Source of the DNA: a virus
DNA: 26,843 nucleotides
Direction: 5' to 3' (one strand)
Virus record (IMG/VR): IMGVR_UViG_3300017782_003923
Span: 1-26,843 of that record
Shown here: piece by piece, positions 2,460 through 26,843 of the stretch
Layout of the letters: every line of letters starts with the position of its first letter
Position numbering within the stretch: position 1 is the stretch's first letter
Notes under the pieces: generated by a model
Told to the model about the DNA's origin: nothing
Databases searched by the model: none
The model's input: the letters and a program-made list of their open reading frames with translations, nothing else
Program-made: the position numbers and the translations under genes

Positions 2460-3275
2460 TTATGTTTCCATATCTTGCTCGTCGGCATAGATAATAACGC
2501 ACCTACAATTAATAACATTAGCCGCACCACCTTTAGGATCACCCGCATATGACATTGGCATACCGCCAACAATAAAATCTTCGTTCATATCTACTATTTG
2601 TCCGTTAGCAGAAGCATGAGTAGATCTAGTTCTTGCATCATTAGTAGCAACCCACTTTTTTAACATTTTTATACCTAAGTCTTTTTCAACTTGCTTATGA
2701 TAAGAATCATTAGCAAAAGATGCGGCGTTATGTGTTTCAGTTCTTGATATAAGAGCAGCTCTTGTTCTGCTTATAGGTAAGAACTTGCTTGATACCAATC
2801 TTGCAATTTCATCAAGCGTAAGATTGTCTGCTCTGCCTTGCTCTATAAGATTACTAATTCTATTTGACATTCTTGCTGTTATTCCTGCTAAAACCAGTTG
2901 TCTAGTATTAAAATAATTTTCAACTAGTTCTTCAAAATCTGTGCTTCTACCAAAAACAAAAGCTTCTTGCTTCTGATTTCCAAAATATTTATCTTCGTTA
3001 GATTTATAAGTAACTTGAAATATTTTTCTGTAGTGATTAAGAATTACAGGCATAAATTCTTCATTTAAAGATTGAACTGCTATACCTTCATTGTATATGC
3101 CAAATTCTTTATAAAGATACAGTTGCGTGTTTAAAAATTTTCTAAAAATAGTATTCAGTCTTTTATAAAACCTTTTTTCTAAATTATTTCTAAGTGCAAG
3201 TAGTCTTCTTGTTTCTGCTCTATTGCTTATACTTCTTTGTCTAAAAGAATTAAACCTTTTGCGATTAAGGTTCAT
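2460..3275 (-). CDS. Mu gpF-like head morphogenesis protein
   Basis: This 271-residue protein is of the phage Mu gpF / SPP1 gp7 family of minor head proteins, which sit with the portal in the prohead. The N-terminal 100 residues are basic and helical. The C-terminal half carries the family signature: RTETHNAASFAND, then WVATNDARTRSTHASANGQ, and ending in GGAANVINCRCVIIY. Its ATG overlaps the portal stop codon as ATGA (four bases), so translation is probably coupled. Position next to the portal and before the protease fits the family. In related proteins this fold is sometimes fused to toxins; no additional domain is present here. Confidence 0.9.
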   Translation of the reverse strand: MNLNRKRFNSFRQRSISNRAETRRLLALRNNLEKRFYKRLNTIFRKFLNTQLYLYKEFGIYNEGIAVQSLNEEFMPVILNHYRKIFQVTYKSNEDKYFGNQKQEAFVFGRSTDFEELVENYFNTRQLVLAGITARMSNRISNLIEQGRADNLTLDEIARLVSSKFLPISRTRAALISRTETHNAASFANDSYHKQVEKDLGIKMLKKWVATNDARTRSTHASANGQIVDMNEDFIVGGMPMSYAGDPKGGAANVINCRCVIIYADEQDMET

Positions 3276-5293: not shown

Positions 5294-6600
5294 TAGCTTA
5301 TTCTCCAGTTTACTTGTCCTTTAGACTTGCTAAGTTCGGTTAATCCCCATACTAAAGCATCTAATCTATCAGGTGAACTATTTGTTTCGCCAGTATAACT
5401 GCACATTTGCGATTCTAACTCAGGAAATACACCTACATGATGCACCCTTTTTTGTTCATACAAGGCTGAGATTGGTTCTGCTCTAAGTATTTTACCTCTT
5501 GTTGCTCTAACGCTTCTGTAAGAAACATTGTTGTCAATATTTCTAATAAGCCTTTCAACCAAGTCACCACCGTTGTTCACTTCTGCGACTATTCTATCAG
5601 CTTCCCATTCATAAAAAGCATTTATAGCTATTTTACCCCATTTATCAGGGGGATGTCTTCCTGATAAGTCTTCCAATACATAATACTCATTATTGAAGTC
5701 TTTTCCTACTACTACTATACCTGTTTCATCAGAATTTGCATTAGCAGTGACAGCAGGATCTATAGCAACAATAATCTGTGCTAGTTCTTTATCTTCGGTG
5801 CATCTATTTTGTTCAATTAAATCATTAGTCCATAAAGCACCATCAAGATTATCAATAATTTCAGCGTATAATTCTTGTCTACCTAAAGTGGTTCCTTCAT
5901 ATTTATCTTTTAACATTGCTAAAGCACTTTCCGCTAGATTATCTTCATTTTCAAAAGTACTTCCTGATGTAACGTGTACATCATCTCTAACAACTAATTC
6001 TTTTATCAATTTGGTTGGTTTTGGTGTTGTGGTGATAACGCATTGTGGATTATTACCTAGTCTTAATCCAAACATTAATTGATCAAAAGCTTCAGGATAA
6101 CGCCATGCAGCAACTTCATCACACCATGCTCTATGGAACTGTGGTCCTCTTAATCTATCAGGCTCCTGAGCGGCGTATCCAGTTATCTTAGAGCCATTAA
6201 ACAGTCTTATCTCTGATGTGCTTGATGAATAACCTTTCATATCAGATGATTCTAAAAAACATTCTTTGGGTATTATTGAAAGCAATCCAGAATTACCTCC
6301 AAAACAAACCCTTCTTAAATCTCCATGGGTAGGAGCAACTACAGCACAATTTACATTGTTATTTCTTAAGGCGTATAATGCTATGTCCTGTGCACCAGTT
6401 CTAGTTTTTCCCCAGCCACGACCAGCTAAGATTAACCATATATAGTGTTCTATAAATTTAGGTTGAAGCTGTTTATCTCTTGCTGTTTCTAACCAACTAA
6501 TGCGTAGATTGTAAGCTTCTGACTCTGCTGTCTTCAACTTCGTCAAGGAGTTCCATAGCTCTTCGGAACGCTTCGTTTGTGTTTTCGTTGATTGTTGCAT
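5293..6600 (-). CDS. terL: Terminase large subunit
   Basis: This 435-residue DNA-packaging motor has an N-terminal ATPase and a C-terminal RNase H-like nuclease. The Walker A motif is AGRGWGKTRTG (about 59-69) and Walker B is AWCDEVAAW, with the acidic pair D161-E162. The nuclease domain begins at IIVAIDPAV with D281 as the first expected metal ligand, and DRLDALVWGLTEL near the end supplies a late Asp. It resembles the Terminase_6-type enzymes of marine siphoviruses and podoviruses. The ATG start gives a 104-base overlap with the small-subunit gene. No other Met occurs before the Walker A motif, so a long overlap or a non-ATG start inside it is required. Confidence 0.95.
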   Translation of the reverse strand: MQQSTKTQTKRSEELWNSLTKLKTAESEAYNLRISWLETARDKQLQPKFIEHYIWLILAGRGWGKTRTGAQDIALYALRNNNVNCAVVAPTHGDLRRVCFGGNSGLLSIIPKECFLESSDMKGYSSSTSEIRLFNGSKITGYAAQEPDRLRGPQFHRAWCDEVAAWRYPEAFDQLMFGLRLGNNPQCVITTTPKPTKLIKELVVRDDVHVTSGSTFENEDNLAESALAMLKDKYEGTTLGRQELYAEIIDNLDGALWTNDLIEQNRCTEDKELAQIIVAIDPAVTANANSDETGIVVVGKDFNNEYYVLEDLSGRHPPDKWGKIAINAFYEWEADRIVAEVNNGGDLVERLIRNIDNNVSYRSVRATRGKILRAEPISALYEQKRVHHVGVFPELESQMCSYTGETNSSPDRLDALVWGLTELSKSKGQVNWRIS

Positions 6601-9051: not shown

Positions 9052-10758
9052 ATGACAATAGAACAAACATTAAATGAAAACAGAATACAACTCAAACATC
9101 ATCAAGAAGGAAATCAAAAAGTTAAATGTCCCCAATGTCAGCCACCTCACAATCCAAAAGATAATCCTTTGTCAGTTACTATTAATGAAGATGGTGTTGT
9201 TTGGAATTGTCATCACTGTGATTTTAAAGGTGGGAAAAAAACTGGAAATATATTTAGACCTTATCAAAAACCTGTTTATGTTGCACCTACAAAATTAGAA
9301 CCAAGACAAGAATCTTTTATGGTTAACTTCTTTAAACAAAGAGGTATAAGTGAATCAACGATAAACGAATATAAAATCTATAATGAAAATAATTGGATTG
9401 GTTTTCAATACTTTGATGAAAATGGAAAATTAACAAACATAAAATATAGAACTGTTGATAAACAGTTTAGACAATCAGCCAACACTAAATCAATACTTTA
9501 CAACTATGACAAAGTTTGCAAAGAAGAAACAGTTATATTTACTGAAGGCGAGATGGATGTTCTATCTTTAGCTGAATGCGGTTTCAATAATGCAACAACT
9601 TTACCTAATGGTGCCCCCAAAGAGTTTAAAGGAGATGAAAAAGACGCTAGGTATAAAGCATTAGAAAACTGCAAACTTAAAGCAAAAAAAATTATTTTAT
9701 TTACAGATAATGATGAAAGCGGTAAAGCATTACACAAAGAATTATTACACAGATTTGGTAAAGATTTATGTTGGTTTGTTCGTATACCTGATAATTGTAA
9801 AGATGCCAATGAAGTGTTAATCAAACACGGTGCTTTAAAACTTAAAGAAATAATAGACAATGCTGAACCATACCCTATAGATGGCTTATATACTGCTAGG
9901 GATTATTTTGCACAAGTTAATGATTTATATGAAGGTAATTATGAAAAGCCATTAGAGATAGGCTTAGATGGTCTAGATGAGATTTATAAACCTATGACTG
10001 GCACGTTTACTGTTATCACAGGTATACCCAATCATGGTAAGTCAGCTTTCCTTGACCAATGCTTACTAAAACTTGCTATAAATCATGGTTGGTCTTTTGC
10101 TCTGTTTTCACCTGAACATTCAACATCAATGCACATAAGAAGATTGGTACAGATGTATTTAGGAAAATCATTTGATGAAGGTTTTTCAAATCGCATGACA
10201 AAAGCTGAACTTAATAAAGGGTTAGATTTTATTCATAAGCATTTTTATTTTATAGAAACTAAAGATAGCATTCCTTCTATTGAATTGATTTTAAATATCG
10301 CCAAGAGTGCTATATACAAGCATGGTGTTAAAGGATTAGTCATTGACCCTTTTAATGAAGTGTCTGCTGTTAGACAAGGAAATCAAAGAGAAGATGAACA
10401 TATCAGAGATTTTATATCTTTATGCAAAAGATTTACTAGAGTATACGAAGTTATATGTTGGGTTATAGCACACCCAACTAAATTACCTAAATCTAATGAT
10501 GGTTCTTACAGTCCTCCTACTGCTTATGACATAAGCGGTGCTGCTCATTGGCATAACCAAGCAGATGCAGTTTTAACAGTACATAGAGACTTTGATGAAA
10601 ACTCAACAAGCGTTATAACTAGAAAAATAAGAGAACAGGGTTTATATGGAAAAATTGGAGAAGCTAAATTTACTTATAATTTAAACACTCATGGCTTCAC
10701 CAAGTATGAAGAAAAAGATGAAGACTGGGACGATTATATATCTAGTTGGGATAATTAA
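9052..10758 (+). CDS. Primase-helicase (zinc finger, TOPRIM, DnaB-like helicase)
   Basis: This 568-residue protein resembles T7 gp4: one chain that makes primers and unwinds DNA at the phage fork. A zinc-binding module is given by C26-x2-C29 and C53-x2-C56. The TOPRIM primase core has E165 in VIFTEGEMDVLSL and D219/D221 in ILFTDNDESGKAL. The C-terminal RecA-like helicase has Walker A GIPNHGKS (324-331) and a Walker B-like VIDPFNEV. I start it at the ATG at 9052 (AGGA eight bases upstream) rather than at an in-frame TTG at 9037 inside the previous gene. Its stop overlaps the stop of the convergent glycosyltransferase gene at AATTAATT. Confidence 0.93.
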   Translation: MTIEQTLNENRIQLKHHQEGNQKVKCPQCQPPHNPKDNPLSVTINEDGVVWNCHHCDFKGGKKTGNIFRPYQKPVYVAPTKLEPRQESFMVNFFKQRGISESTINEYKIYNENNWIGFQYFDENGKLTNIKYRTVDKQFRQSANTKSILYNYDKVCKEETVIFTEGEMDVLSLAECGFNNATTLPNGAPKEFKGDEKDARYKALENCKLKAKKIILFTDNDESGKALHKELLHRFGKDLCWFVRIPDNCKDANEVLIKHGALKLKEIIDNAEPYPIDGLYTARDYFAQVNDLYEGNYEKPLEIGLDGLDEIYKPMTGTFTVITGIPNHGKSAFLDQCLLKLAINHGWSFALFSPEHSTSMHIRRLVQMYLGKSFDEGFSNRMTKAELNKGLDFIHKHFYFIETKDSIPSIELILNIAKSAIYKHGVKGLVIDPFNEVSAVRQGNQREDEHIRDFISLCKRFTRVYEVICWVIAHPTKLPKSNDGSYSPPTAYDISGAAHWHNQADAVLTVHRDFDENSTSVITRKIREQGLYGKIGEAKFTYNLNTHGFTKYEEKDEDWDDYISSWDN

Positions 10759-11531
10759 TTTCTTGAACTGGCGTATGCTTTTTTCCATGATATAACTACG
10801 TCTTTTCTTGAACCCCAACCCCATGCTGTTTTAGTTTCTTTTTCAACAACTCTAACAAAGTCAGGGTGCATAAGTTTCATTTTTTCAGCAGCTTTTGCTT
10901 GTACTTCTTGTGTTCTATATGTTGAACAACCGCCATCAGCGTTTGATTGCACTTGTCCTTGTGCATAATAATAACTAACAATATTTGGAACGCCATTTCT
11001 TAATAGCTGTAAAGCAATATCAAAATCTTCCATGACTTCAACGCGACCATGTTTTGCTCTGCCTTTACATATATTTAAGTCATAAGCCAACACTCTGATA
11101 TATCTTGTATTTTCCTCAAAAAGTTCTTCAACACTATTTCCTACTTTTCTATTATTACCATTTCTATCACTTATACCGCAATGCCCATAACCCATATCCA
11201 TATATCTATCTAGTAATTGAAATATTTTGTAATATTCATTAGGTTCACAGCTTCTTAATTTATGCCCATCACCTGAACGAATATGAAATTTCAAATCATC
11301 ATCAAGCATACATATTCTTGGGTCATCACTTGTGTCCCATATATATTTTCTCACTGCTGAAATACCTTTCAAATGATTTGGAACAACAAGTAAGTTTTTA
11401 TGCACTTTTCTATAATCATCAGCTTCGTTTTCATCTACGACAAGAACGCATTGTTCCCTTAAATCTTCAGGCATAAATCTAAGGGTTCTTTGGTTGTCTA
11501 CTCTGCTTTTAGTCGGTATGAATATCTTCAT
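10755..11531 (-). CDS. Glycosyltransferase, probably for hypermodified DNA bases
   Basis: This 258-residue GT-A-like enzyme starts at the ATG at 11531 (AGGAGAAA upstream), not at an earlier in-frame ATG. It opens with IFIPTKSRVDNQRTL, has GISAVRKYIW, then the metal- and sugar-nucleotide-binding acidic motif MLDDDL (D77-D79), and VEVMEDFDIALQLLRNG with E168-D169 as candidate catalytic or metal residues. This order matches the TET/JBP-associated glycosyltransferases (TAGT) known from phages. It is the last gene of an operon with a TET-like dioxygenase, so the likely reaction is transfer of a sugar onto 5-hydroxymethylcytosine in phage DNA, shielding it from host nucleases. Substrate and sugar are inferred. 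It overlaps the preceding gene by 23 bases. Confidence 0.8.
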   Translation of the reverse strand: MKIFIPTKSRVDNQRTLRFMPEDLREQCVLVVDENEADDYRKVHKNLLVVPNHLKGISAVRKYIWDTSDDPRICMLDDDLKFHIRSGDGHKLRSCEPNEYYKIFQLLDRYMDMGYGHCGISDRNGNNRKVGNSVEELFEENTRYIRVLAYDLNICKGRAKHGRVEVMEDFDIALQLLRNGVPNIVSYYYAQGQVQSNADGGCSTYRTQEVQAKAAEKMKLMHPDFVRVVEKETKTAWGWGSRKDVVISWKKAYASSRN

Positions 11532-12288
11532 AATAATTTCTCCTGAAAATGTCATCTTCTGTGCATTCTGCACCATATTGTATTTCAATAATTTTACATA
11601 CTACGTTATATGGATTGGTTATTTGATGCCATGTTCCTAGTGGTACTATAAAATAATCATGTTTTTGCAAGGTTAATTTTTCATCATCTACATTGTTTTG
11701 ATTATGAAAGATATCGCATTTACCTTGACTGATTAACCATATTTCTGAACGTTTATCATGTTTTTGATAACTCATACCTTTGTTAGGTTCAACAATTAAT
11801 TCTTTTACTTTTACGCCATTATCTTCAAATAAATTAAAATACTCTCCCCATACTTTATTGTATTTTTCGTATTTCCAATCTTTTAAAATCCAAGAAGATG
11901 AGTTTTGTTTTACATTGCCACCAATACCTGATAATAATTCTATACCTGATACTAATATTTCAGGCACGTTATTATTATTTCTATCACCGCCATTACAGAA
12001 TAAAATATTATCGTTAGGATAAAGTTTTTTTATTTCTTCTAATCCATTAATAGCTGTTCCATGTTCATCATTTTCATTTTTAATAACTTGGTCAACATTT
12101 TTTATAGATTCCAATATTTTTTTTCTTTCATCAAAAGGCATAAATGCTTTACCTTTTTTATTTATTAACCAATCATCATCATTCAATAAAATAATAAGTA
12201 TATCGCCTTTCTTTGATGCTTCTTCTATTAATGAAATATGTCCTGAATGTACAGGGTCAAATCCACCACTTATAACAGCAATGTTCAA
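11509..12288 (-). CDS. Nucleotidyltransferase-cupin fusion, sugar-nucleotide supply
   Basis: This 259-residue protein is a fusion. Residues 1 to about 137 are a cytidylyltransferase-like Rossmann domain with the HxGH motif H14-SG-H17 (GGFDPVHSGH), as in TagD and the nucleotidyltransferase half of HldE, and the later segment NGGDRNNN and SSSW in the place of the ISST-type motif. Residues about 145-250 are a cupin like the C-terminal part of type II mannose-6-phosphate isomerase/guanylyltransferase (SYQKHDKRSEIWLISQGK ... LGTWHQI, with H177 and H221). Together they could isomerise or sense a sugar and activate it. The start is a TTG that overlaps the dioxygenase stop as TTGA; AAGGGG lies upstream. 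It precedes the glycosyltransferase. Confidence 0.78.
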   Translation of the reverse strand: MNIAVISGGFDPVHSGHISLIEEASKKGDILIILLNDDDWLINKKGKAFMPFDERKKILESIKNVDQVIKNENDEHGTAINGLEEIKKLYPNDNILFCNGGDRNNNNVPEILVSGIELLSGIGGNVKQNSSSWILKDWKYEKYNKVWGEYFNLFEDNGVKVKELIVEPNKGMSYQKHDKRSEIWLISQGKCDIFHNQNNVDDEKLTLQKHDYFIVPLGTWHQITNPYNVVCKIIEIQYGAECTEDDIFRRNYYEDIHTD

Positions 12289-13202
12289 TTAATTTTATCC
12301 CCTTCTTTTCTATTTTTTGCCCTGTCAAGTTCTTCTTGCATAGTTCCACAATGTTTTATATTTTCTCTGTAATAACAAACAACTGAAATCCTTTCAAAAG
12401 GTGCTTTAGAAGTCATTTTTGTATTCCCATGAACTTCATGCACATCAAAATAACAAACATCACCACTACTTAAATCAAAAGCACAATCATATCTTGGCAT
12501 TACTGTATAACCACCTTCATATTTACCTGCACTTAAAACTGCCAAATTTCCTAATCCTTCTTTTAAGTCACCTGCGTCCGTATGATAAGCGGTTTGAAAA
12601 TTTTTATTAACTGTTACTGTACTAAAAACTGTATCAGTAATAATAAAATCTTTGCTACTGTGGTCTACTACTTTTTTTTGTGCTTCATATCTTTCAGAAC
12701 ATGCTTCTTCAAACATATGACTTATATATTTTAAAAAAGGTATTGAGTTACTAAATAGTTCTCTATTTTTTTCAGTAAATGCTGTTTGTCTACAATAAGG
12801 AAACCTTGTGTTCCTGTCAAAATAACCTGCTATACCTGAATTAACTTGTTTAGCACGCATAACCTTGCTTAATGTTCCGTCTTGTTTTATTTCTCTGTAT
12901 CTGTGACTAGAAATAGTTTTATGTCCAACTTGGTCATCACTATCTAAAGGACCTGCTGCCATACCTCTATTTTCTGATTTAGTTGCTGCTCCTCTAAGAT
13001 TATAATAAGCAGTTTCACATACTTTTTTAGGTATCTTACCTTTTCTAAAAAAGAATAATGGTTCGCCATCTTCAGTATAAGCATTGCAATCATCATTGAT
13101 TAAAATAGAATAATCATCATCTGTAGCATAACGACCTTTTAAATCATTGGCTTCTTCTTTTGTTAATTTGGGTTTTAAATAATATTTAGGTACTTCTTTC
13201 AT
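12285..13202 (-). CDS. TET/JBP-type 2-oxoglutarate/Fe(II) dioxygenase
   Basis: This 305-residue enzyme is of the TET/JBP superfamily, which oxidises methyl groups of 5-methylpyrimidines in DNA. The double-stranded beta-helix core runs from about residue 185 to 280: FSTVTVNKNFQTAYHTDAG gives the iron ligands H207 and D209, GKYEGGYTVMPRY and LSSGDVCYFDVHEVHGN give the distal ligand H258, and R271 (ERISVVCYYR) is placed to bind 2-oxoglutarate. All catalytic residues are present. Phage members convert 5-methylcytosine to 5-hydroxymethylcytosine, which glycosyltransferases then decorate; the neighbours here fit that. It overlaps the ParB-like gene by 17 bases. No methyltransferase is visible in the window. 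Confidence 0.87.
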   Translation of the reverse strand: MKEVPKYYLKPKLTKEEANDLKGRYATDDDYSILINDDCNAYTEDGEPLFFFRKGKIPKKVCETAYYNLRGAATKSENRGMAAGPLDSDDQVGHKTISSHRYREIKQDGTLSKVMRAKQVNSGIAGYFDRNTRFPYCRQTAFTEKNRELFSNSIPFLKYISHMFEEACSERYEAQKKVVDHSSKDFIITDTVFSTVTVNKNFQTAYHTDAGDLKEGLGNLAVLSAGKYEGGYTVMPRYDCAFDLSSGDVCYFDVHEVHGNTKMTSKAPFERISVVCYYRENIKHCGTMQEELDRAKNRKEGDKIN

Positions 13203-13818
13203 GTTCTTTTTTAACAGCTGTAAAAACTATATCTGAATAATTATCCACTTTATATTTTTCTTTAAGGTTCATCAACATGCTTTTAAATTCTTCCAGAGTT
13301 TGAATATCATATAAAAGCATAAATTGTTTTATGTTTGTTTCAGGTATATCAAAATCTGAACTTATGTTAAGGCTTTCAAATTCTTCATCAACTTCAGGTT
13401 CAGCAAATTTTAAAAAGTTTTCTTTAGTGATTTTTTGTATTTCATCAAAATCAAATCCTGTTAATTTTAAATCAAAATCGCCTTCTACTAATTTGTTAAA
13501 TTCTAATGACAAAGATTCAGAGTCCCATTCTGAAAAATCTTGTGCTTTATTATCCATAATTCTGAAAGCGGTTTTTTGTTCCTCAGATAATCCTGAAGCT
13601 ATTTTTACTGGAACTTCATCAATTTCTAATAACTTGGCTGCTTTGATTCTTGAATGACCTGCAAGAATAATCATATCTTCATCTACAACTACTGGTACTT
13701 GCCATCCAAAATTCTTAATGCTTTCAGCAACCCTTTGCACAGTTTTTTCATTTATTCTTGGGTTGTTTTCATAAGGTATTATTTTTTCAACTTTTGTTAA
13801 ACTGGTTATAAATTCCAT
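13186..13818 (-). CDS. ParB/sulfiredoxin-like domain protein of DNA modification operon
   Basis: This 210-residue protein has an N-terminal ParB-like nuclease domain: IIPYENNPRI (about 13-22), SIKNFGWQVPVVVDED, and the signature ILAGHSRIKAAKLL (51-64), followed by MDNKAQDFSEWD. Phages often carry this domain fused or next to DNA methyltransferases, where it may guide the enzyme. The C-terminal part (about 145-210, FMLLYDIQTLEEFKSML) is a helical module common to such proteins. It does not look like a partition protein: there is no ParA and no central HTH. Its start overlaps the regulator stop as TAATG, with GGAG upstream. Its methyltransferase partner, if any, is not in the window. Confidence 0.85.
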   Translation of the reverse strand: MEFITSLTKVEKIIPYENNPRINEKTVQRVAESIKNFGWQVPVVVDEDMIILAGHSRIKAAKLLEIDEVPVKIASGLSEEQKTAFRIMDNKAQDFSEWDSESLSLEFNKLVEGDFDLKLTGFDFDEIQKITKENFLKFAEPEVDEEFESLNISSDFDIPETNIKQFMLLYDIQTLEEFKSMLMNLKEKYKVDNYSDIVFTAVKKEHERST

Positions 13819-16621: not shown

Positions 16622-16906
16622 ATGATAAACTACTTAACTAAAAAAGAATACACAGGTCAAAATATAGAAATATTAATGGCTAGTGGATATGAAGAAGGAG
16701 ATTCATTCCTTACTTTTAAACAAGCACTTAAATTAGATGGAGTTAGTGGAAAAACTTTAAAAGGTTTAAAAAAATGTGCAACTTTAATGTTTGTTAAAGA
16801 ATATGAAGATAAAGAAACTGGAAAAATGGTTAAAAAACCAAAATATTTTTCAGTATTTGATGCTAAAGAAATATTAGCAAGAATTGAAAACAACAAGGCA
16901 TCTTAA
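16622..16906 (+). CDS. Small early protein, ArdC-like segment possible
   Basis: This 94-residue protein is expressed from its own promoter (leader 2) and its stop codon lies in the loop of a terminator, so it forms a one-gene unit. It reads NYLTKKEYTGQNIEIL, FKQALKLDGVSGKTLKGLKK, then KKPKYFSVFDAKEILARIE. The last part resembles the YFSVFDxxE-like end of the ssDNA-binding domain of ArdC-type antirestriction proteins, and similar small proteins are common in marine phages; I cannot assign a function with confidence. No membrane segment. Given strong expression signals, an early role such as nucleic-acid binding or host takeover is conceivable. Confidence 0.72.
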   Translation: MINYLTKKEYTGQNIEILMASGYEEGDSFLTFKQALKLDGVSGKTLKGLKKCATLMFVKEYEDKETGKMVKKPKYFSVFDAKEILARIENNKAS

Positions 16907-18888: not shown

Positions 18889-19332
18889 TTATATTTTTGA
18901 CCAATCTAATCCTGAAAATAATAATGCTTCTGCTTCCCTTCTTCTTATTAATCCTTGCAATACTTTTCCACCTGCTTTATTCCATCTTTTAATCTGTGCA
19001 GGTACTTCTTCGTATTCACCTTTATTTAAAACTTTAATCATAGTGGATGCATTAAGATTTGCACCACCTAAATTAAATGTCCATGATACAAGAGCATCAA
19101 ATTGATGTTGATGCAGTGGAACTGTAACAGCTTTTTTTACTGCATCTTCGTAAACTTCTAAATCAGTTAATAATATAGAGTCTGCTTCTTCTTGTGTTAT
19201 TTCTTGATGTTCTTCTACAAATTTTGTATGCCCGTATCCTATAGTCCAAACATCTGCGGCACATTTGTATGATTTAAGTTCGCACCCTTCAAACTTCTTA
19301 ATAAGTGCTATTCCTTCTTGTGATATTTTCAT
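18889..19332 (-). CDS. Endolysin (GH24 phage lysozyme) with Cys in catalytic triad
   Basis: This 147-residue muramidase degrades the host cell wall at the end of infection. The start at 19332 (MKISQEG) is chosen because GGGGG lies six bases upstream; a longer in-frame reading overlaps the nuclease gene. The catalytic region is KKFEGCELKSYKC ... WTIGYGHT: E15, eight residues, C24, five residues, T30, the E-8-(D/C)-5-T pattern of P22/R21-type lysozymes with Cys in the Asp place. DALVSWTFNLG and IKRWNKAGGKVLQGLIRRR are the other family blocks. There is no signal peptide or SAR segment, so a holin must release it. It is four bases after the nuclease gene. Confidence 0.93.
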   Translation of the reverse strand: MKISQEGIALIKKFEGCELKSYKCAADVWTIGYGHTKFVEEHQEITQEEADSILLTDLEVYEDAVKKAVTVPLHQHQFDALVSWTFNLGGANLNASTMIKVLNKGEYEEVPAQIKRWNKAGGKVLQGLIRRREAEALLFSGLDWSKI

Positions 19333-19336
19333 ATTT

Positions 19337-19729
19337 TTACCCCCATGTTCCGTCTTCTCTGACTTTGGCTGTTTTTTTACCACCCCAGTATTCAACTGCG
19401 TGTCCTTCTTGCACGAGGGTTTTACAAATATCTTTTTTACCTTCTGTAAAAGGTGTCGCGAGAATCCGTCCATATTTTCCTTTTCCATGTGATTGAATTA
19501 CTAATTTATCAGCACATAGTTCTTTTAACCTTTCTTTGGCTTTTAGTCCCAGTGCTTTTTCTTCTAAATTTCTTGTGCGTGATTCAGGTGTATCAATACC
19601 TGCTAATCTGCATCTTTGTTTATGTAACTTAACGTCAAAGCCTAAATCTAAAGTCACGTCTATGGTGTCTCCATCTATTACCCTTTCTAGTATAGCGTTA
19701 TATACAAATGGCGTGACTAATTCAGACAT
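19337..19729 (-). CDS. Staphylococcal nuclease-like (thermonuclease) protein
   Basis: This 130-residue protein is an SNase-fold nuclease. Its motifs are RVIDGDTIDVTLDL (D19, D21), QRCRLAGIDTPESRTRN (R41, D46, E49), LKAKERLKEL and GKYGRILATPF (R88), so the expected calcium-binding and catalytic arginine and acidic residues are present, followed by LVQEGHAVEYWGG. It has no signal peptide and would act on DNA or RNA in the cytoplasm. Lying between the holin candidate and endolysin, it may break down host nucleic acid late in infection or lower viscosity at lysis. The ribosome site is poor; the gene starts six bases after the holin stop and is probably coupled. Confidence 0.88.
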   Translation of the reverse strand: MSELVTPFVYNAILERVIDGDTIDVTLDLGFDVKLHKQRCRLAGIDTPESRTRNLEEKALGLKAKERLKELCADKLVIQSHGKGKYGRILATPFTEGKKDICKTLVQEGHAVEYWGGKKTAKVREDGTWG

Positions 19730-19941: not shown

Positions 19942-20328
19942 TTATTTGTTATCTGACACCTTTTCTTTATCTGTATCTTCTTTATCGTATTCTCTGTAAA
20001 ACTCAATAATATGCAAAGTATCTTTAATATATCTTTTTATTTCTGCCATATTATTAGATAAGTTTTCATAATCTTTTGTTGTTAATGAATAATACGCGGT
20101 GTTGGGTGCAGAGCCATTTTCTAAATCAGAAAGGTACTCTTTCATTATATGAGGGGTTAAAATTTCCCAATCAATATCCGCCAAGTTTAATTCTATTGGG
20201 AGTGGCGGGTGATATATAGGGGACGGCTCTGCAATCGTTATCACTTCAACAGGTTTAGTTTGCGTTGGTATCATAGAACACGCTGTGAAGTAGAAAAGGG
20301 TAAGACTAGCTATTAGTAGATTCTTCAT
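19942..20328 (-). CDS. Outer-membrane lipoprotein, o-spanin (Rz1-like)
   Basis: This 128-residue protein starts at the ATG at 20328, inside the i-spanin gene (23-base overlap); the TTG before it is less likely. Residues 1-16 are a lipoprotein signal (NLLIASLTLFYFTAC), with C17 as the lipidated Cys. A proline-rich segment PSPIYHPPLPIELN follows, then WEILTPHIM, YYSLTTKDYENLSNNMAEIK and a charged end. Nested or overlapping i-spanin and o-spanin genes, with a Pro-rich lipoprotein, are usual for Rz/Rz1 pairs, though this one is longer than lambda Rz1. It would join with the i-spanin to fuse inner and outer membranes at lysis. Confidence 0.8.
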   Translation of the reverse strand: MKNLLIASLTLFYFTACSMIPTQTKPVEVITIAEPSPIYHPPLPIELNLADIDWEILTPHIMKEYLSDLENGSAPNTAYYSLTTKDYENLSNNMAEIKRYIKDTLHIIEFYREYDKEDTDKEKVSDNK

Positions 20329-20710
20329 CAAACTGGTTAGGGTTAGTTAGTGTTATTAAATCTTCTTTTACTTGCTTAGTACCTTTATTAACTATTTTTT
20401 CTATAAGTTTAGGTTTAGCTAAAGCAAGATTATCAAGATCATGTTTTGCAAAAGTATTCTTTAGTTTATTTACTTCTCGTTGTGATTCTCTATTTTTTTC
20501 TGTAAGAATATTTAATTGTTCTTGATTTTGTTTTTGTTTTGCAAGGTGTTGCTTTATAGATTCGTTTTGTTGCTCTATTGAGTTTTCTAAAGCTATTTGG
20601 TTACCTTTTAGAACTGATATTTGATCTAAAAGCCTATCAATGTACCAAGCACTTCCTGATGCTGTGACAAGCAACAGACCACCTAGTATTAATGATAATT
20701 TAAATCCCAT
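20306..20710 (-). CDS. Inner-membrane spanin (Rz-like)
   Basis: This 134-residue protein has an N-terminal membrane anchor (LSLILGGLLLVTASGSAWYI, about 5-24) and a long periplasmic coiled coil (about 30-100, rich in Gln, Glu, Lys and Asn with heptad Leu/Ile) ending in a charged tail. That is the standard architecture of the i-spanin Rz. It overlaps the cyclase gene by 22 bases upstream and the o-spanin gene downstream. Its place in the lysis cassette with a lipoprotein partner, holin candidate and endolysin supports the call. Confidence 0.85.
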   Translation of the reverse strand: MGFKLSLILGGLLLVTASGSAWYIDRLLDQISVLKGNQIALENSIEQQNESIKQHLAKQKQNQEQLNILTEKNRESQREVNKLKNTFAKHDLDNLALAKPKLIEKIVNKGTKQVKEDLITLTNPNQFDEESTNS

Positions 20711-22467
20711 GTATACACCTGTAATTTATCTTTTTTGCCTTTAGCTTTTATTGGTTTTAAAGGTATCAAATTAAATTCTATACCATTTTGTGTTGATTGA
20801 CCAATTAACAAATCTACACCTGCATTTTTTGTTCCTGATTCTAATCTAGCGGCAACATTAACTGCATCACCTATAGCTGTGTAATCAAATCTATTTTCAC
20901 TCCCCATATTTCCAATAATTGCATATCCAGTATTAATGCCTATGCCTATGGTTACTGGTTCAATATTTTGTTTTGCAAGAAGTATATTTAGTTCATGCAT
21001 ATTTTTTTGTATATCTAACGCACATTCAAAAGCTTTTTCTTCATGGTTTTCTAGATCTAATGGTGCATTAAAGATAGCCATCATGGCATCACCAATATAT
21101 TTATCTACCATTCCTCCGTGTTTTTGCACTGCTTGTTGTTGTGCGGTTAATGCTTTATTCATTATGTATGTAACTTGTTCAGGTTCTAATTTTTCAGATA
21201 GTGCTGTGAAACCTCTTACATCTGTAAATAAAAATGTTGCATATTTTTTTTCTCCACCAAGTTTTAAAAGTTCAGGATTATCTTGTAATTTTTTAATTTG
21301 TCTTGGATCTATATAATGTTCAAATTGTTTTTTTATTTCTTGTCTTAACCTGTACTGTTCTCTGAACCTTATATAAAAAGCTATAGAGCCTGTAATAAAC
21401 TGTGAAATTAGTGACCAAGTAACATCAACCAATAATCCTCTGTGGATAAGTCCATAACCTGTATAAGCTGTGCATAACATTATTAAGATAGCTGTTGTAA
21501 TACCCCAAGTTATACCTAAAGCGTTTAATACAAGCCATATTAGACTTACTGTAAGCAAAAATATAAGTATTTCTAAAGCTATAGCCCAATCAGGTATATA
21601 TGGGCTATCTTGTATTAAGATTGATTCTGCTAAAGCTGTTTGAATTTTATGTGGTTCTAGTAAACCTACAGGAGTAGCTATTTGTGGCATAACACCATTA
21701 GCTGTAACTCCTATAAATACAAATTTACCTTCTACATTCATTTCTTGTAAGTCTGTTTGTGGAGTATCTACCCAACTTATCCATTTTCTACCAAGACTAT
21801 CAGTTTTAACTGGTGGTATTCCTCTAATTGATATTTCCTCTATACCATTATCATTAGTTTTTATAATGTAAGTTCTTACATCAAATAATGCTTTATATAT
21901 TTGTGTGCCAAATGAAGGTATCCATTCATTTTCAGGTGTGCTTACTAAAAGGGGTATTCTTCTAACCAGTTGATCTATTTCAGTGGGAGCAATGGCTAAA
22001 CCCTGCAATGTAGTATTTGATAAGGTGTTCAGGTTTTCCTTGACTCCCATACTTACTATACCACTAACATCATTGCCTTTGACAACTGTTCCTGTAGATT
22101 TAGGGTAATTGTTTTTGCCATCTTCAAACATAGCGATTACAGATGGTGCATAGCCTAATGTAGTTGCAAAGACCTTATCTCCACCCATTCTATCTGCTTG
22201 TGGAAAGGACATAACCCAACCAACCCCAATAGCACCACGATTAATAAGTTCTACTTGTATTTCTGCTAATCGTCTTCTTGGTAGAGGATAACCACCTTCG
22301 TTTTCTATATCTGCTTCTGTAATATTTAGGATTACAAAATTTCCTGATGGTTCATATTTTTTGACTAAAGCATCAAATGTTCTTAGTTTTATTATTTCTG
22401 TAGGTGTGCTTTGAAATATAAGCGGTAAAGATAATATTAATAATATTGGTACTATAAGTTTTTTCAT
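20689..22467 (-). CDS. CHASE2-domain membrane adenylate cyclase
   Basis: This 592-residue protein has a membrane or signal segment (3-20), a periplasmic CHASE2 sensor (about 25-290; FDALVKKYEP, ILNITEADIENEGGYPLPRR), three membrane helices (about 293-365), a short linker, and a class III cyclase domain (about 405-590). The metal ligands are D416 in FTDVRGFT and D460 in DKYIGDAMMAIFNAP; K456 and T530 (YTAIGD) occupy the adenine-recognition places, with N537 and R541 for catalysis. All residues needed to make cAMP from ATP are intact, of the Lys/Thr bacterial type. Its start overlaps the FecR-protein stop (TAATG). It is followed directly by spanins. It might link an outer-layer signal to cAMP in the infected cell. 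Confidence 0.92.
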   Translation of the reverse strand: MKKLIVPILLILSLPLIFQSTPTEIIKLRTFDALVKKYEPSGNFVILNITEADIENEGGYPLPRRRLAEIQVELINRGAIGVGWVMSFPQADRMGGDKVFATTLGYAPSVIAMFEDGKNNYPKSTGTVVKGNDVSGIVSMGVKENLNTLSNTTLQGLAIAPTEIDQLVRRIPLLVSTPENEWIPSFGTQIYKALFDVRTYIIKTNDNGIEEISIRGIPPVKTDSLGRKWISWVDTPQTDLQEMNVEGKFVFIGVTANGVMPQIATPVGLLEPHKIQTALAESILIQDSPYIPDWAIALEILIFLLTVSLIWLVLNALGITWGITTAILIMLCTAYTGYGLIHRGLLVDVTWSLISQFITGSIAFYIRFREQYRLRQEIKKQFEHYIDPRQIKKLQDNPELLKLGGEKKYATFLFTDVRGFTALSEKLEPEQVTYIMNKALTAQQQAVQKHGGMVDKYIGDAMMAIFNAPLDLENHEEKAFECALDIQKNMHELNILLAKQNIEPVTIGIGINTGYAIIGNMGSENRFDYTAIGDAVNVAARLESGTKNAGVDLLIGQSTQNGIEFNLIPLKPIKAKGKKDKLQVYTWDLNYH

Positions 22468-23585
22468 TATTCGCTTTGCGTAATTGTAATTACAGAATCA
22501 CTTCCACCATTAATTTTTATAACATTAGATACACCATCTTGAATAATGATAAGGGTATAGGCATCATCACCATTTAAATCTAATCTAGCAGTATTGTTTA
22601 CATTCCTTCTCAGACTTACAACATTACCTGCTATCAAAGTTGTGATTTGTGTTTCTGTATCTTGACCTATTTTTGTTCCTTGTATATCAACACCTCCTAC
22701 TACAGCTAAAACATCTTCTTGTTTGCTTACTGCAAGTGCATCTAAGACATTTAACAAATCTTCAAGATAGTTAGTATCAAGATAATTAATATCTAATTCT
22801 GTGAACTCTAATTCATCTTGACCAAAAAAATCTTCATCAAGATAATCAATATCTAAATCATTAAAATCTAAAATATTCTGTTGTGAATCTTGTGCAACTT
22901 CTTCTGTAAAACTTAGTTCTTTTTTGGGGGGTGTCACTATTAGCATGTTATCAATAATATCTAATGTTAAATCTAGGATTACTGGTTCACTTGGTTTAGA
23001 TTCAAAGACATTTACTGTGGTGGCTTGAAATGGTTTATTAAGCAAAACTGTACCCATAGCAGTAACTACTTCTATCTCACCACTAGACAAGCCGAGAGCA
23101 TCAGGGAGCAGTATTATCAATGACCTTCCTAGTTCATCTACAGTAGCTGTAAAATCTGTACCTCTGATTGCGATATTTGCTGTAGGTGTTTTAAGTTTTA
23201 TATTTTGTTTATCTATTCTATTAAGATTGCCTGTAATAAATCTTGCTGTGCCTAATCCAAAGGTAAGAGCCATCTTTGATTTAGATGGGTCAGGGTCATA
23301 GATATATTCATCTATTAAGAGTTGTGAGTGTTCAGTTAGTTTGACTGTAGAATCGTCTAAAAACTTAATAGCCATTCTTCCATTAGAAGTAATAGCTTCA
23401 TCATTGCTTTGTATAGCAAATTTTAGATTTGCATTATAGGGTTTATCTCTTATTATTTGTGCTGAACCATTTAGTTCAGATATATCACCAATATCAACAG
23501 CCTGTGCTTGTACCTTGATCGTTTTGGATAACACAAACAGTAGAAGAAGAATTACCACCCACTGATATGATTTTGAGCCAGTCAT
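22467..23585 (-). CDS. FecR-domain protein with curlin-type C-terminal repeat
   Basis: This 372-residue exported protein has a signal peptide (WVVILLLLFVLSKTIKVQAQA, about 9-29) and a FecR domain (about 38-190) with the family motifs TSNGRMAIKFLDDSTVKL, LTFGLGTARFITG and TPTANIAIRGTDFTATVD. An acidic, duplicated DIDYLDEDFF/DINYLDTNYL segment (about 245-277) follows. The C-terminal 50 residues carry a curlin-like unit: IIIQDGVSNVIKIN has the QxGxxN signature (Q349-N354) and the chain ends in VITITQSE. In bacteria, FecR proteins of this type are often next to CHASE2 cyclases. It overlaps the curlin gene by 92 bases and couples to the cyclase gene. CAGGAC precedes the start. It is likely periplasmic or surface-exposed. 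Confidence 0.88.
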   Translation of the reverse strand: MTGSKSYQWVVILLLLFVLSKTIKVQAQAVDIGDISELNGSAQIIRDKPYNANLKFAIQSNDEAITSNGRMAIKFLDDSTVKLTEHSQLLIDEYIYDPDPSKSKMALTFGLGTARFITGNLNRIDKQNIKLKTPTANIAIRGTDFTATVDELGRSLIILLPDALGLSSGEIEVVTAMGTVLLNKPFQATTVNVFESKPSEPVILDLTLDIIDNMLIVTPPKKELSFTEEVAQDSQQNILDFNDLDIDYLDEDFFGQDELEFTELDINYLDTNYLEDLLNVLDALAVSKQEDVLAVVGGVDIQGTKIGQDTETQITTLIAGNVVSLRRNVNNTARLDLNGDDAYTLIIIQDGVSNVIKINGGSDSVITITQSE

Positions 23586-24225
23586 TGTCCTGTGTGCTTA
23601 ATTGTTGAATATTAAATGTTCTTTGACCACCTGTATGATCTAAATAGAAATATCCACCTGCTGAAGCATTAACACCAGTACCTGTATAGGTAACTGTATT
23701 GTCAGAACCATCAATATCCATATAGTTAGTTGCACCATCAATATTTATGTTTGATGTGATCGTATTATTAGAACCTTGAATAATCCAATCTAAGTTAAGA
23801 CTTGCCGCTAAAGCAGTAGTTCCTTGATTCAACGTAAATGTATTAGAAGCACCAGTAACTGCAACATTATGATCAGAACCATCAGCACCAAAACTATTAG
23901 TTGGGTCTACTTGGATAGTAAAAGAATTAGTTGAGCCAGTAAAATTATACAAACCTGTAAAGTTATCAGCGTATATATCACCTAAAAATTTATTGGTAGC
24001 ACCAATCATATTGATATCTAGTGTCATGCTATTACCATCTAGATCAAAGGGTGTAAGATCACCTGCTGTTGTATTTAGACCACCTATGATATTAGATATA
24101 CCTAATTGTTCTAAATCTATATTTGCACCTGTTCCTGATTGATCTACATATATTTCGTTATCAGCCGCGTATGTTGGCAAGACAATCATCATCGCAATCA
24201 GGCTTAGTAATTTCAGTTTCTTCAT
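23494..24225 (-). CDS. Exported curlin-like repeat protein
   Basis: This 243-residue protein has a signal peptide (KLLSLIAMMIVLPTYA, cut near residue 20). Right after it come two curlin-type units: DQSGTGANIDLEQ and LEQLGISNIIGG, with Q29...N35 and Q40-N45 in the QxGxxN pattern. The rest is a regular beta array of G-(S/A/T)-x-N-x-(F/I/V/M) units roughly 17-25 residues apart (IGATNKF, TGSTNSF, TGASNTF, QGSNNTI, DGATNYM, DGSDNTV). Two Cys stand at the end (TVCVIQNDQGTSTGC), where QNDQGTS again resembles a curlin repeat. It is probably a substrate of the CsgG pore rather than CsgA itself. It overlaps CsgG by 65 bases; GGAG precedes the start. Confidence 0.8.
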   Translation of the reverse strand: MKKLKLLSLIAMMIVLPTYAADNEIYVDQSGTGANIDLEQLGISNIIGGLNTTAGDLTPFDLDGNSMTLDINMIGATNKFLGDIYADNFTGLYNFTGSTNSFTIQVDPTNSFGADGSDHNVAVTGASNTFTLNQGTTALAASLNLDWIIQGSNNTITSNINIDGATNYMDIDGSDNTVTYTGTGVNASAGGYFYLDHTGGQRTFNIQQLSTQDNDWLKIISVGGNSSSTVCVIQNDQGTSTGC

Positions 24226-25027
24226 ATTTCCAAAAACTCCTATCGTATCCGATATTTATAAGTTCCAAGACTGCACCTTCTATAGCTTTCATCAATGCAA
24301 TCGTTGTTGACTCGTTTCTTGAATTACCTAATTCAATTTCTACGAGTTCAGTACCCATCTCTATGAATCTAAAAACATCTTCTGATTTACCATAACTAAA
24401 TATGGTTTTTTGGCTTAATACTTCTATAAGTATCTCACCTGTTGCAACTGATACCATACGAAGACTAACTGTTATATTGTCTTCTCTGTATTGAATGCTT
24501 TTACCTATTCCTAGATACCTAGCACCAACACCACCAGTTGACAAGTTACTATCATAGCTTATTACAGCACCTTCTAGCAATACACCTGCAAAGAGCAGTG
24601 GTGGTACGTTCTTTTCTTCACCATCTTTTGCAAATTGTTCTCTTGCTGATCTAATAAGTTGTCTTTCTTTTGTTAGGTTATCTAAGCCAACCCTTTCTAC
24701 TACTCTAAAAAATTCACCATTACTAGAATGTTTTAATGCTCTTATTAATAATGTGTAGGGTGCTTGTGTTACAGCAGTAGAAAATAAAGCAAATTCACTG
24801 TTACTTTTTCTTTGTCCTGTTTGATCTGTAAATGCTGTGGGATATACAGCTACTATAGGTTGTACTAAAGGTTTCTGTACATTAGCTAATTCTTTAGAAT
24901 GAAGTTGATCAATTCTTACTATGTCGTTATTTGCTCTTTGGTCGTATGTATCTTCATACTGGTCAAAAATTGAACAACTAGAAAGTAAAAGTACCGATAG
25001 GAATCGTAATTTCTGTGACTGTGCCAT
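24161..25027 (-). CDS. csgG: CsgG-type curli secretion channel lipoprotein
   Basis: This 288-residue protein matches CsgG over nearly its whole length. A lipoprotein signal leads to C18 (LLLSSC). Blocks shared with E. coli CsgG, from memory, include TDQTGQ, FSTAVTQ (F82 aligned with the constriction Phe), a RQLIRSAREQ-like helix, then GGVGARYLGIGKSIQYRED, NITVSLRMVSVATGEIL, KTIFSY and VFRFIE. The transmembrane-hairpin part is thus present, and mature length (271) is near that of the E. coli channel (262). The constriction residues Tyr and Asn of E. coli appear to be Ser and Leu here. It should form an outer-membrane nonameric pore for unfolded curlin-like proteins. It overlaps csgF by 50 bases. 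Confidence 0.95.
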   Translation of the reverse strand: MAQSQKLRFLSVLLLSSCSIFDQYEDTYDQRANNDIVRIDQLHSKELANVQKPLVQPIVAVYPTAFTDQTGQRKSNSEFALFSTAVTQAPYTLLIRALKHSSNGEFFRVVERVGLDNLTKERQLIRSAREQFAKDGEEKNVPPLLFAGVLLEGAVISYDSNLSTGGVGARYLGIGKSIQYREDNITVSLRMVSVATGEILIEVLSQKTIFSYGKSEDVFRFIEMGTELVEIELGNSRNESTTIALMKAIEGAVLELINIGYDRSFWKYEETEITKPDCDDDCLANIRG

Positions 25028-25520
25028 CTGCTTCTGTTATTTTTAGGGTTAATGTTACGCCATCACTTGTATATTCTATTATATTTCCTTCTAGTTCAAT
25101 AATTCCTGAATCAGAAGGTGTTTCACCAAATAAATTACTAACAAGTTGTCTTGAAAGTTCAGCATAGACTCTACTTTCTAAGTTACGCATAAATCTAGCT
25201 AAAGTACTATTTTCTTTTTCTCTTTCTATTTCTTCTTGTAAGGCTTTGATTTCTTCTTTAATAGTAAGCTTACGATTAAACTCTTGATTTTCTATAGTTA
25301 GATAATGACTAGATGTATTTATGCCATTAAAAGATGGTGATTTAAACTTATGTACTATTTGATCTGCTGTAGCACTTTGTATAAATATTCCTAAAATAAG
25401 AATTATGCCTATTATAGATACCCATTTGATAATAGTATCTTTTTCAGCTTCTTCTTTTCTTCTAAGTAGTTCAGCTTTACTTGGTCTACCTCTTTTTTTC
25501 TTAATCTTTTCTTTGGTCAT
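24978..25520 (-). CDS. csgF: CsgF-like curli assembly factor with basic N-terminal extension
   Basis: This 180-residue protein begins at the ATG at 25520 (MTKEKIKKKRG; AAAGG upstream), rather than at a TTG six codons earlier. Residues about 7-30 are very basic with an RGRPSKAELLRRK motif, followed by a hydrophobic segment (WVSIIGIILILGIFIQ, about 37-52) and ATA before DQIVHKFKSPSFNG, which matches the mature N-terminus of CsgF (TFQFRNPNFGG in E. coli, from memory). The rest (SHYLTIENQEF, LARFMRNLESRVYAELSRQL, ITIPIGTFTF) fits the CsgF helix and C-terminal beta part. CsgF caps the CsgG pore from outside and helps nucleation. The cytoplasmic extension is unusual: E. coli CsgF has a short signal. 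Confidence 0.85.
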   Translation of the reverse strand: MTKEKIKKKRGRPSKAELLRRKEEAEKDTIIKWVSIIGIILILGIFIQSATADQIVHKFKSPSFNGINTSSHYLTIENQEFNRKLTIKEEIKALQEEIEREKENSTLARFMRNLESRVYAELSRQLVSNLFGETPSDSGIIELEGNIIEYTSDGVTLTLKITEADGTVTEITIPIGTFTF

Positions 25521-25851
25521 CTCTATCCGCCTTTGCAATTTTACTGCTATCTATTAGTTGTGGGACACCAAGAATAGTCTTAATAAGAGTATCTTGTCGT
25601 ATGATCTCATTGTCTAAACTTCGCACCCTATCAATTAATGCTACCAAAATACCATGTTGGGAATCAAGTTTTGTGCCTAGTCTATCTTCAATAGCAGATA
25701 TTTGTTCTGCTACTTTTTGATCTACAACATCAAGTTTAGTTTCCATACCATCAACAATACGCATGATAAGTTTATAAATAAACCAACCAAGTCCAAGTGA
25801 AGCGGCAATAGGAAATCCAACCTCTTGGATTATCTTTATTGCAGAATCCAT
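25501..25851 (-). CDS. Small membrane protein with coiled coil
   Basis: This 116-residue protein has one N-terminal hydrophobic segment (VGFPIAASLGLGWFIYKLIM, about 11-30) followed by a charged coiled coil (about 35-100: GMETKLDVVDQKVAEQISAI, then LVALIDRVRSLDNEIIRQ) and a basic end. Similar proteins are common in marine phages near tail-fibre and lysis genes and are sometimes called holins of the BhlA kind. With a second candidate (19736-19900) closer to the endolysin, the role is unsure: holin, antiholin or membrane anchor. Its end overlaps the CsgF gene by 20 bases, and its start lies next to the previous stop. Confidence 0.72.
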   Translation of the reverse strand: MDSAIKIIQEVGFPIAASLGLGWFIYKLIMRIVDGMETKLDVVDQKVAEQISAIEDRLGTKLDSQHGILVALIDRVRSLDNEIIRQDTLIKTILGVPQLIDSSKIAKADRDDQRKD

Positions 25852-26308: not shown

Positions 26309-26843
26309 CTATAAAGTTGTTATTATAAAACTTAGTAATTCATTATATCTTACACCAAGTCTTGTTTGTTCTACACCATCATCATCAGTCCAAGTGCTAG
26401 ATATAAACATACCATAATCACTTGCATCTAATCCTTCTGCTTCAAATGCATCTTGTAAGTCTTGTGCTATAACTCCAAAATGATATCTAGCTGTTTCATC
26501 AGAATCAGAATTATCATCTTTTTCTGCTACTGAATCTTGCCATCTAAATCTTCTTATTAAACCTTTACATGCTGTAGCTACTCTTTGCTCTGCTTCTGTT
26601 AAGGCTTGTATGTCTTGTTTTAAATTTCTATCAGAAGTTTGGATAGTGCCATTGGTTGCATAGATATCATCAAATCTTACTGATGAGCTTCCAAGATCAA
26701 TACCATTATCACTATCTGCACCATGTTCATTACAAGGTAGAATAGCTTTATAAGTAATATAAGATTCAAATTTAAGACCAGTGCTAAAAGTTGCTATAAA
26801 TATATTAGATTCTGTTTGATCTACATGACCTATTTGACCTATA
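26309..26843 (-). CDS. Tail fibre/spike C-terminus with S74 chaperone domain, partial
   Basis: The gene enters from the right edge; 177 residues of its C-terminus are visible. The last 108 residues are an intramolecular chaperone of the peptidase S74 (endosialidase) type: TSDRNLKQDIQALTEAE with the Ser-Asp-x-x-x-Lys self-cleavage site (Ser codon 26633-26635), then FRWQDS, YHFGVIAQDLQDAF and LGVRYNELLSFIITTL. This domain folds the trimeric fibre and then cuts itself off. Just before it, SSSVRFDDIYATNGTIQTSD is the typical fibre-to-chaperone junction. The part outside the window should carry the trimeric shaft and receptor-binding region. It ends ten bases before the next start. Confidence 0.92.
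   Translation of the reverse strand, partial: IGQIGHVDQTESNIFIATFSTGLKFESYITYKAILPCNEHGADSDNGIDLGSSSVRFDDIYATNGTIQTSDRNLKQDIQALTEAEQRVATACKGLIRRFRWQDSVAEKDDNSDSDETARYHFGVIAQDLQDAFEAEGLDASDYGMFISSTWTDDDGVEQTRLGVRYNELLSFIITTL

Follow-up and report, generated by a model that had tools for sequence, protein, structure and literature searches.

A copy of the marine-phage curli secretion module within the lysis gene run of a siphovirus-type virus contig

Background

In this study, we report the analysis of a type VIII secretion (curli) module located on the IMG/VR virus record IMGVR_UViG_3300017782_003923, a stretch of 26,843 bp that is referred to here, at its full length, as the window. The module lies on the minus strand, with its genes in order from right to left, and consists of a small front gene (labelled hol in this study), csgF, csgG, a gene for a curlin-like protein (curA), a gene for an exported FecR-domain protein and a gene for a CHASE2 receptor with a class III adenylate cyclase domain. 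A first-pass annotation, made from the sequence alone, had suggested that this set represents a new system. This gene set, in this order, has already been described, as a whole by Wittmers et al. (2022; PMC9599517) in myophages and nine podophages of the HTVC023P type, and in part in the first description of the cluster (PMC7029224). Moreover, the GenBank records of HTVC008M and Melnitz name CsgF, CsgG, curlin-type proteins and the cyclase, with FecR also named in Melnitz. The window block is a copy of this known marine-phage module, of the order hol-csgF-csgG-curlin-fecR-(second curlin)-cyclase. Added here are a third carrier lineage, which is siphovirus-type, the place of the module within a lysis gene run, and corrected labels for two of its proteins.

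Gene content of the module

The open reading frames (ORFs) of the window include all five genes that the first-pass annotation had named, on the minus strand and in order, each overlapping or abutting its neighbour. These are csgF, a curli assembly protein gene (24978..25520; Pfam CsgF PF10614, 5.3e-16, covering almost all of the 132-position model), csgG for the outer-membrane lipoprotein pore (24161..25027; Pfam CsgG PF03783, 1.3e-47), curA (23494..24225), the FecR gene (22467..23585; Pfam FecR PF04773, 2.8e-9, residues 66-151 of a protein with an N-terminal signal peptide) and the CHASE2-cyclase gene (20689..22467; CHASE2 PF05226, 3e-23; Guanylate_cyc PF00211, 1.1e-20). The identities first given to CsgF, CsgG, FecR and the CHASE2-cyclase held up, all being above the Pfam cut-offs, and PHROGs families already exist for these four. 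The arrangement is that of the Wittmers-type module, with CsgF, CsgG, curlin and FecR on one strand followed by the cyclase. The first module gene is hol (25501..25851; 116 amino acids), which matched a PHROG of unknown function (1e-15). Comparison of the window with a related contig (L002) gave ratios of nonsynonymous to synonymous substitution (dN/dS) of 0.05-0.19 for the six module genes, indicating that the run is under purifying selection.

Pore proteins CsgG and CsgF

CsgG matched solved CsgG structures (phmmer, 4.5e-44) and carries a lipobox, LSSC, a pattern present in 67 of 74 relatives. The window encodes two features of functional curli systems, namely a CsgG lipoprotein pore and a CsgF with a CsgG-facing N-terminal segment. 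The csgF ORF extends back to a TTG at 25538, and the ATG at 25520 is probably the start. In CsgG-CsgF structures, the N-terminal segment of mature CsgF sits inside the CsgG barrel. Alignment of this segment to bacterial CsgF paired FKSPSFNG..SSH of the phage with NPSFGG..NSSH of bacteria. Retention of the segment counts against the suggestion that phage CsgF has perhaps lost its partnership with CsgG (PMC9004378), and judging from sequence would suit an assembled CsgG-CsgF pore with cargo better than a bare pore. A separate feature of the window CsgF is a basic, AT-hook-like tail (KKKRGRPSK; 25410-25520) ahead of the signal peptide; a long basic tail occurs in this position in many phage CsgF proteins, with the GRP motif in 25 of 66 relatives.

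Curlin-like protein and FecR protein

The curlin-like identity proposed for the product of curA, the presumed pore substrate, has indirect support; Pfam returned no match at all, including none to the curlin repeat. The protein has a signal peptide. Of ten bacterial csgF/csgG neighbourhoods, six contained ORFs recognised by a profile of the phage curlin family. These eight ORFs all lie on the csg strand and were the sole matches in the neighbourhoods (E from 1e-7 at best to 6e-3 at worst, for a small database). AlphaFold predicts an all-beta protein of short strands at even spacing, with a predicted local distance difference test (pLDDT) score of 81, and nine GxxN motifs were counted against 3.0 in shuffles. 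The counterparts in HTVC008M and Melnitz are labelled curlin-associated in GenBank. Two C-terminal cysteines (window 23494-23560), conserved in 55 of 61 relatives, possibly form a disulfide.

The FecR protein ends in a curlin-like element (22476..22559, minus strand), YTLIIIQDGVSNVIKINGGSDSVITITQ, that holds one QxGxxN motif (shuffle p 0.04). Phage FecR proteins start with a signal peptide, and this curlin-like strand motif closes 54 of 56 relatives. They gave no anti-sigma domain match, and neither a sigma factor nor a TonB receptor turned up in the genes of the module. A function as an iron-citrate sigma regulator was considered for these proteins and found unsupported, given that they comprise a signal peptide and FecR domain with neither anti-sigma domain nor sigma factor. 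From these features we infer that the FecR proteins are exported curlin partners and not iron regulators.

CHASE2-adenylate cyclase

The cyclase domain matched a solved adenylate cyclase (6e-36) and carries the class III residue set, that is, the two metal-binding Asp, the Lys and Thr/Ser specificity residues and the Asn-Arg pair. D416, K456, D460 and R541 were invariant in 53 of 53 relatives, N537 was found in 51 of 53, and position 530 is Thr or Ser, likewise in 51 of 53. By its residues, the predicted enzyme retains its catalytic site. Pycsar defence was also examined: the cyclase domain matches PycC models, yet none of the other module genes gave a PADLOC match (effector), and this candidate was rejected.

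The front gene hol

The hol product has an N-terminal hydrophobic stretch, weak in some members, followed by a coiled coil. Members of the family are 85-116 amino acids long and lie directly before csgF/csgG in every carrier with enough flanking sequence; the gene is often doubled, with two related small proteins recurring as a pair. According to PMC9599517, the module always has one or two histidine kinases in front, and the gene so named is apparently hol, which encodes a small coiled-coil protein. The front gene is always there, yet profile searches found a histidine-kinase domain in 0 of 21 hol relatives; it is therefore the published label that looks wrong, not the gene that is absent. 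A holin PHROG match was weak (0.01) and restricted to the coil.

Conservation of the module and its carriers

Searches with four seeds (the window CsgG, the HTVC008M CsgG, hol and the cyclase), keeping the best 80 matches per scan, gave approximately 316 viral loci, which were not dereplicated in the surveys of gene order. Where flanks permitted, loci L002-L083 and L105-L111 showed hol before csgF in 79/79, csgF before csgG in 87/87, csgG before curA in 81/81, curA before fecR in 76/76 and fecR before the cyclase in 68/69. By seed, hol was accompanied by csgF/csgG in 61 of 61 loci, and the cyclase by csgG in 27 of 27 and by fecR in 42 of 42. The genes thus occur together in essentially every carrier examined, the opposite of the refuting condition named in the first-pass annotation, that they never co-occur in other phage genomes. 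The same order recurs in independent viral contigs, among them contigs from other metagenomes (L002-L005). No near-identical DNA match to phage records was found for window bases 1-25000.

Contigs sharing the capsid protein and terminase of the window encode a tape measure protein, a major tail protein and a tail terminator, which assigns the lineage of the window to the siphovirus type. A second type of carrier consists of 55-59 kb contigs whose capsid protein is 61-64% identical to that of HTVC023P/HTVC027P, and the third comprises myophages. The carriers named in PMC9599517 are podophages and myophages; the siphovirus-type carrier appears to be new to the literature searched. Between siphovirus- and podovirus-type contigs, the identity of module proteins is mostly 57-93%, and the capsid proteins and terminases of the two types gave no BLASTP match to each other. 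In a tree of four concatenated module proteins, a single clade of siphovirus-type carriers was rejected (approximately unbiased test, AU p 0.014), indicating that the block moves between lineages; a single podovirus-type clade was likewise rejected (p 0.015). Deeper splits in this tree are less secure because of the long branches to the myophages. The module is passed between phage lineages as a unit.

Contigs of module phages were also found binned into metagenome-assembled genomes (MAGs) of Maricaulis, Neomarinimicrobiota, Rhodobacteraceae, Flavobacteriaceae and Pelagibacter (L105-L111 and L208). A scan of a genome collection for bacterial relatives returned mostly such binned phage contigs, and curli genes reported from MAGs of this kind may therefore be viral. 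A CsgG-like protein 42% identical to that of the window was present at 187-1020 of an unverified 1.5-kb record named 'Salmonella phage S.Kent 1-2-1' (L084), the origin of which is doubtful.

Position of the module beside lysis genes

The late-operon setting and the lysis neighbours (spanin and endolysin) proposed in the first-pass annotation were confirmed. Upstream, the window end cuts a tail fibre gene (26309..26842, minus strand; PHROG tail fibre, 5.9e-39), of which the C-terminal end with a peptidase S74 chaperone domain remains (Pfam Peptidase_S74, 1.6e-11), and two small ORFs separate it from hol. Downstream, the leftward run continues on the same strand through an Rz-like inner-membrane spanin (20306..20710; PHROG 739, Rz-like spanin, 1.5e-12), an overlapping Rz1-like lipoprotein as outer-membrane spanin (19942..20331; PHROG 812, 3.9e-16; lipobox FTAC), a staphylococcal-nuclease-like protein (19337..19729; Pfam SNase, 5.1e-14) and a phage lysozyme, or endolysin (18889..19488; Pfam Phage_lysozyme, 6.9e-49), which is the last gene of the late run. 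In a consensus scan, the stretch from hol to the lysozyme gene gave no terminator-like site on the minus strand.

In most siphovirus- and podovirus-type contigs, the module runs directly into spanin or lysozyme genes. Depending on the seed, 28/31, 42/45 and 25/33 of these loci had a lysozyme gene no more than 2.5 kb beyond the cyclase, against 0/13 of the HTVC008M-seeded (myovirus-type) set; in HTVC008M, in Melnitz and in the G008 type, the cyclase is not followed by a lysis gene. The myovirus-type branch includes 11 contigs with an Rz-Rz1 pair directly upstream of hol, with an overlap of one base in some. A lysis neighbourhood, in one of two arrangements, is thus common among carriers but not shared by all of them; this agrees with late expression and would allow a role in lysis.

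Comparison with known systems

The HTVC023P-type podo-pelagiphages (PMC9599517) share with the window CsgF, CsgG, a CsgA/B-like protein, FecR and cyclase in the same order, together with a small front gene. The window differs from them in being siphovirus-type, in having no second curlin gene, in a front gene that is not a histidine kinase by profile, and in a module that runs into spanin and lysozyme genes, a feature which that paper does not discuss. HTVC008M and the pelagimyophages (PMC7029224) also have the same order, with the window CsgG 51% identical over 74% of the protein, the cyclase 33% and FecR 35%; unlike the window, they are myoviruses with a second curlin, two small front genes and no lysis gene downstream of the cyclase. 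The Methylophilales phage Melnitz (PMC9004378) again has this order, with annotated CsgF, CsgG, two curlin-repeat proteins, FecR and cyclase; the operon was treated there as csgGF only, with the proposal that it acts in lysis timing in the manner of a pinholin or secretin. Rfam and tRNA searches of the window found nothing, and the empty Rfam search indicates that the window holds no counterpart of the Melnitz glutamine riboswitch.

Bacterial curli operons of the csgBAC/csgDEFG type resemble the module in their CsgF-CsgG pair with curlin genes nearby, and differ in that no FecR, CHASE2 cyclase or hol was found in ten chromosomal neighbourhoods. Bacterial FecR and CHASE2 pairs, such as the BiofilmReg operon (PMC5192318) and the loci surveyed here, likewise place an exported FecR-domain protein beside a CHASE2 receptor; unlike the phage module, they have no curli genes described alongside, and some of them signal through a kinase or phosphatase. 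The FecR/CHASE2-kinase operon affects biofilm in Burkholderia (PMC5192318). Among alphaproteobacterial CHASE2 loci, a FecR gene was found within approximately 4 kb of CHASE2 in 21 of 39, as opposed to 0 of 40 control windows (Fisher 8e-9); the loci were the better-scoring ones, several coming from some genomes, and the control windows came from ten of the same genomes. FecR beside CHASE2 is thus an older bacterial pairing. Because the pairing is bacterial, while the ten bacterial curli loci carry neither gene, the phage module looks like curli genes joined to a pre-existing bacterial FecR/CHASE2 sensor pair. One chromosome of the SAR11 family (L184) encodes, at 3949-5985, a CHASE2 protein with a phosphatase-like end (PP2C/SpoIIE-type, by eye), with a FecR gene approximately 1.3 kb away.

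Other features of the window

A likely DNA base hypermodification cassette was noted at 10755-13818, comprising a TET/JBP-type oxygenase (Pfam Tet_JBP, 3.9e-24), a TET-associated glycosyltransferase (TAGT, 3.4e-23), a protein that combines cytidylyltransferase and mannose-6-phosphate-isomerase/cupin domains, and a ParB-like protein. The portal protein (3272-5293) has an extra C-terminal part of approximately 217 amino acids that is 58% identical to part of the annotated major capsid protein of Roseobacter phages CRP-821/822/823/831. A small protein encoded at 16622-16906 matched the N-terminal domain of the anti-restriction factor ArdC (1.5e-6).

Discussion

We propose that curlin export through CsgG and CsgF late in infection is monitored by FecR and CHASE2 and alters the cell surface before lysis, a reading to which we give an even chance of being correct. 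Late in infection, CsgG would form a pore in the outer membrane with CsgF placed in the pore mouth, and the curlin-like protein would leave through this pore and coat the infected cell. The FecR-domain protein may be exported together with the curlin or may be held in the periplasm, where it would bind the curlin. The CHASE2 receptor would sense the state of FecR and curlin in the periplasm, and the cyclase would convert it into cyclic AMP (cAMP). The resulting change of surface, shortly before lysis, might exclude competitors or keep sister cells or virions close by. The hypotheses put forward in PMC9599517 are superinfection defence, sibling capture and uptake. Export, sensing and benefit are deduced here from the genes, their order and conservation, and catalytic and pore features that are intact as far as sequence can tell.

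Several results weigh against this proposal. CsgE was not among the genes of the run in Pfam scans. The curlin identity has indirect support, from profile and model, and the curlin model matched no solved structure at E<=0.001, the best fold match being a weak beta-solenoid-like one at E 0.5. Modelling of the FecR protein failed (pLDDT 38.5). One locus, L105, has all the module genes except the cyclase, which marks the cyclase as the part that can be absent. If the host of the window phage belongs to SAR11, cAMP would have no known reader, since domains binding cyclic nucleoside monophosphates (cNMP) are rare in the SAR11 family (4 of 79 genomes) and absent from 19 of 19 module phages. Class III cyclases above cut-off were found in two of the 79 genomes, one of the two being the phage contig L111. 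Furthermore, Melnitz-infected cells did not clump in the culture conditions used (PMC9004378).

The main rival explanation places the module in the lysis machine itself, with the hol proteins and the CsgG pore timing or completing lysis through a pinholin- or secretin-like leak in the outer membrane, and with curlin, FecR and cyclase as signals or gates. The nearness of the lysozyme gene in most siphovirus- and podovirus-type loci, the spanin pair immediately upstream of hol in the myovirus-type branch, the recurring pair of small front proteins and the lack of a detected terminator-like site before the lysozyme gene all speak for this explanation, as does the lysis timing suggested by the Melnitz authors (PMC9004378). 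It is weakened by the phages that have no lysis gene after the cyclase, by the faint resemblance of hol to holins, and by the consideration that late genes are often near lysis genes through the timing of expression alone. Moreover, a bare pore would need neither the CsgF pore segment nor the cargo genes, which are under purifying selection. We consider a role in the lysis machine possible but less likely than export. The two ideas might also be combined in a lysis-coupled surface device, consisting of a lysis cassette of small membrane proteins, spanins and lysozyme, an outer-membrane curlin exporter and a periplasmic FecR/CHASE2 sensor, in which the state of fibre export gates lysis or reports its approach via cAMP; this is a doubtful reading which, if true, would mean a cAMP signal in hosts almost without cAMP receptors of their own.

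A further proposal, made in PMC9599517 and PMC7029224, is that the infected cell takes up nutrients or siderophores through the pore and that FecR acts as an iron-linked regulator; CsgG without CsgE could indeed remain open. The FecR protein, however, has no anti-sigma N-terminal domain and carries a curlin-like tail, the module genes include no sigma factor or TonB receptor, and curlin substrates always accompany the pore, which together make an uptake function improbable. The gene set looks cellular, as might be expected if an assembly chimera had joined a bacterial curli operon to a phage. Hundreds of independent viral contigs share the same order, as do cultured phages, while the ten bacterial curli loci have no hol, fecR or cyclase; the independent contigs rule out a chimera, and we attach practically no weight to it.

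Conclusions

The labels published for the front gene and for FecR look misleading, and there are two different ways in which spanin genes border the module. As cultured carriers exist in HTVC008M and Melnitz, the competing ideas are testable. The carriage of this module by several unrelated lineages of marine tailed phages, among which it is passed as a unit, implies strong selection for it.

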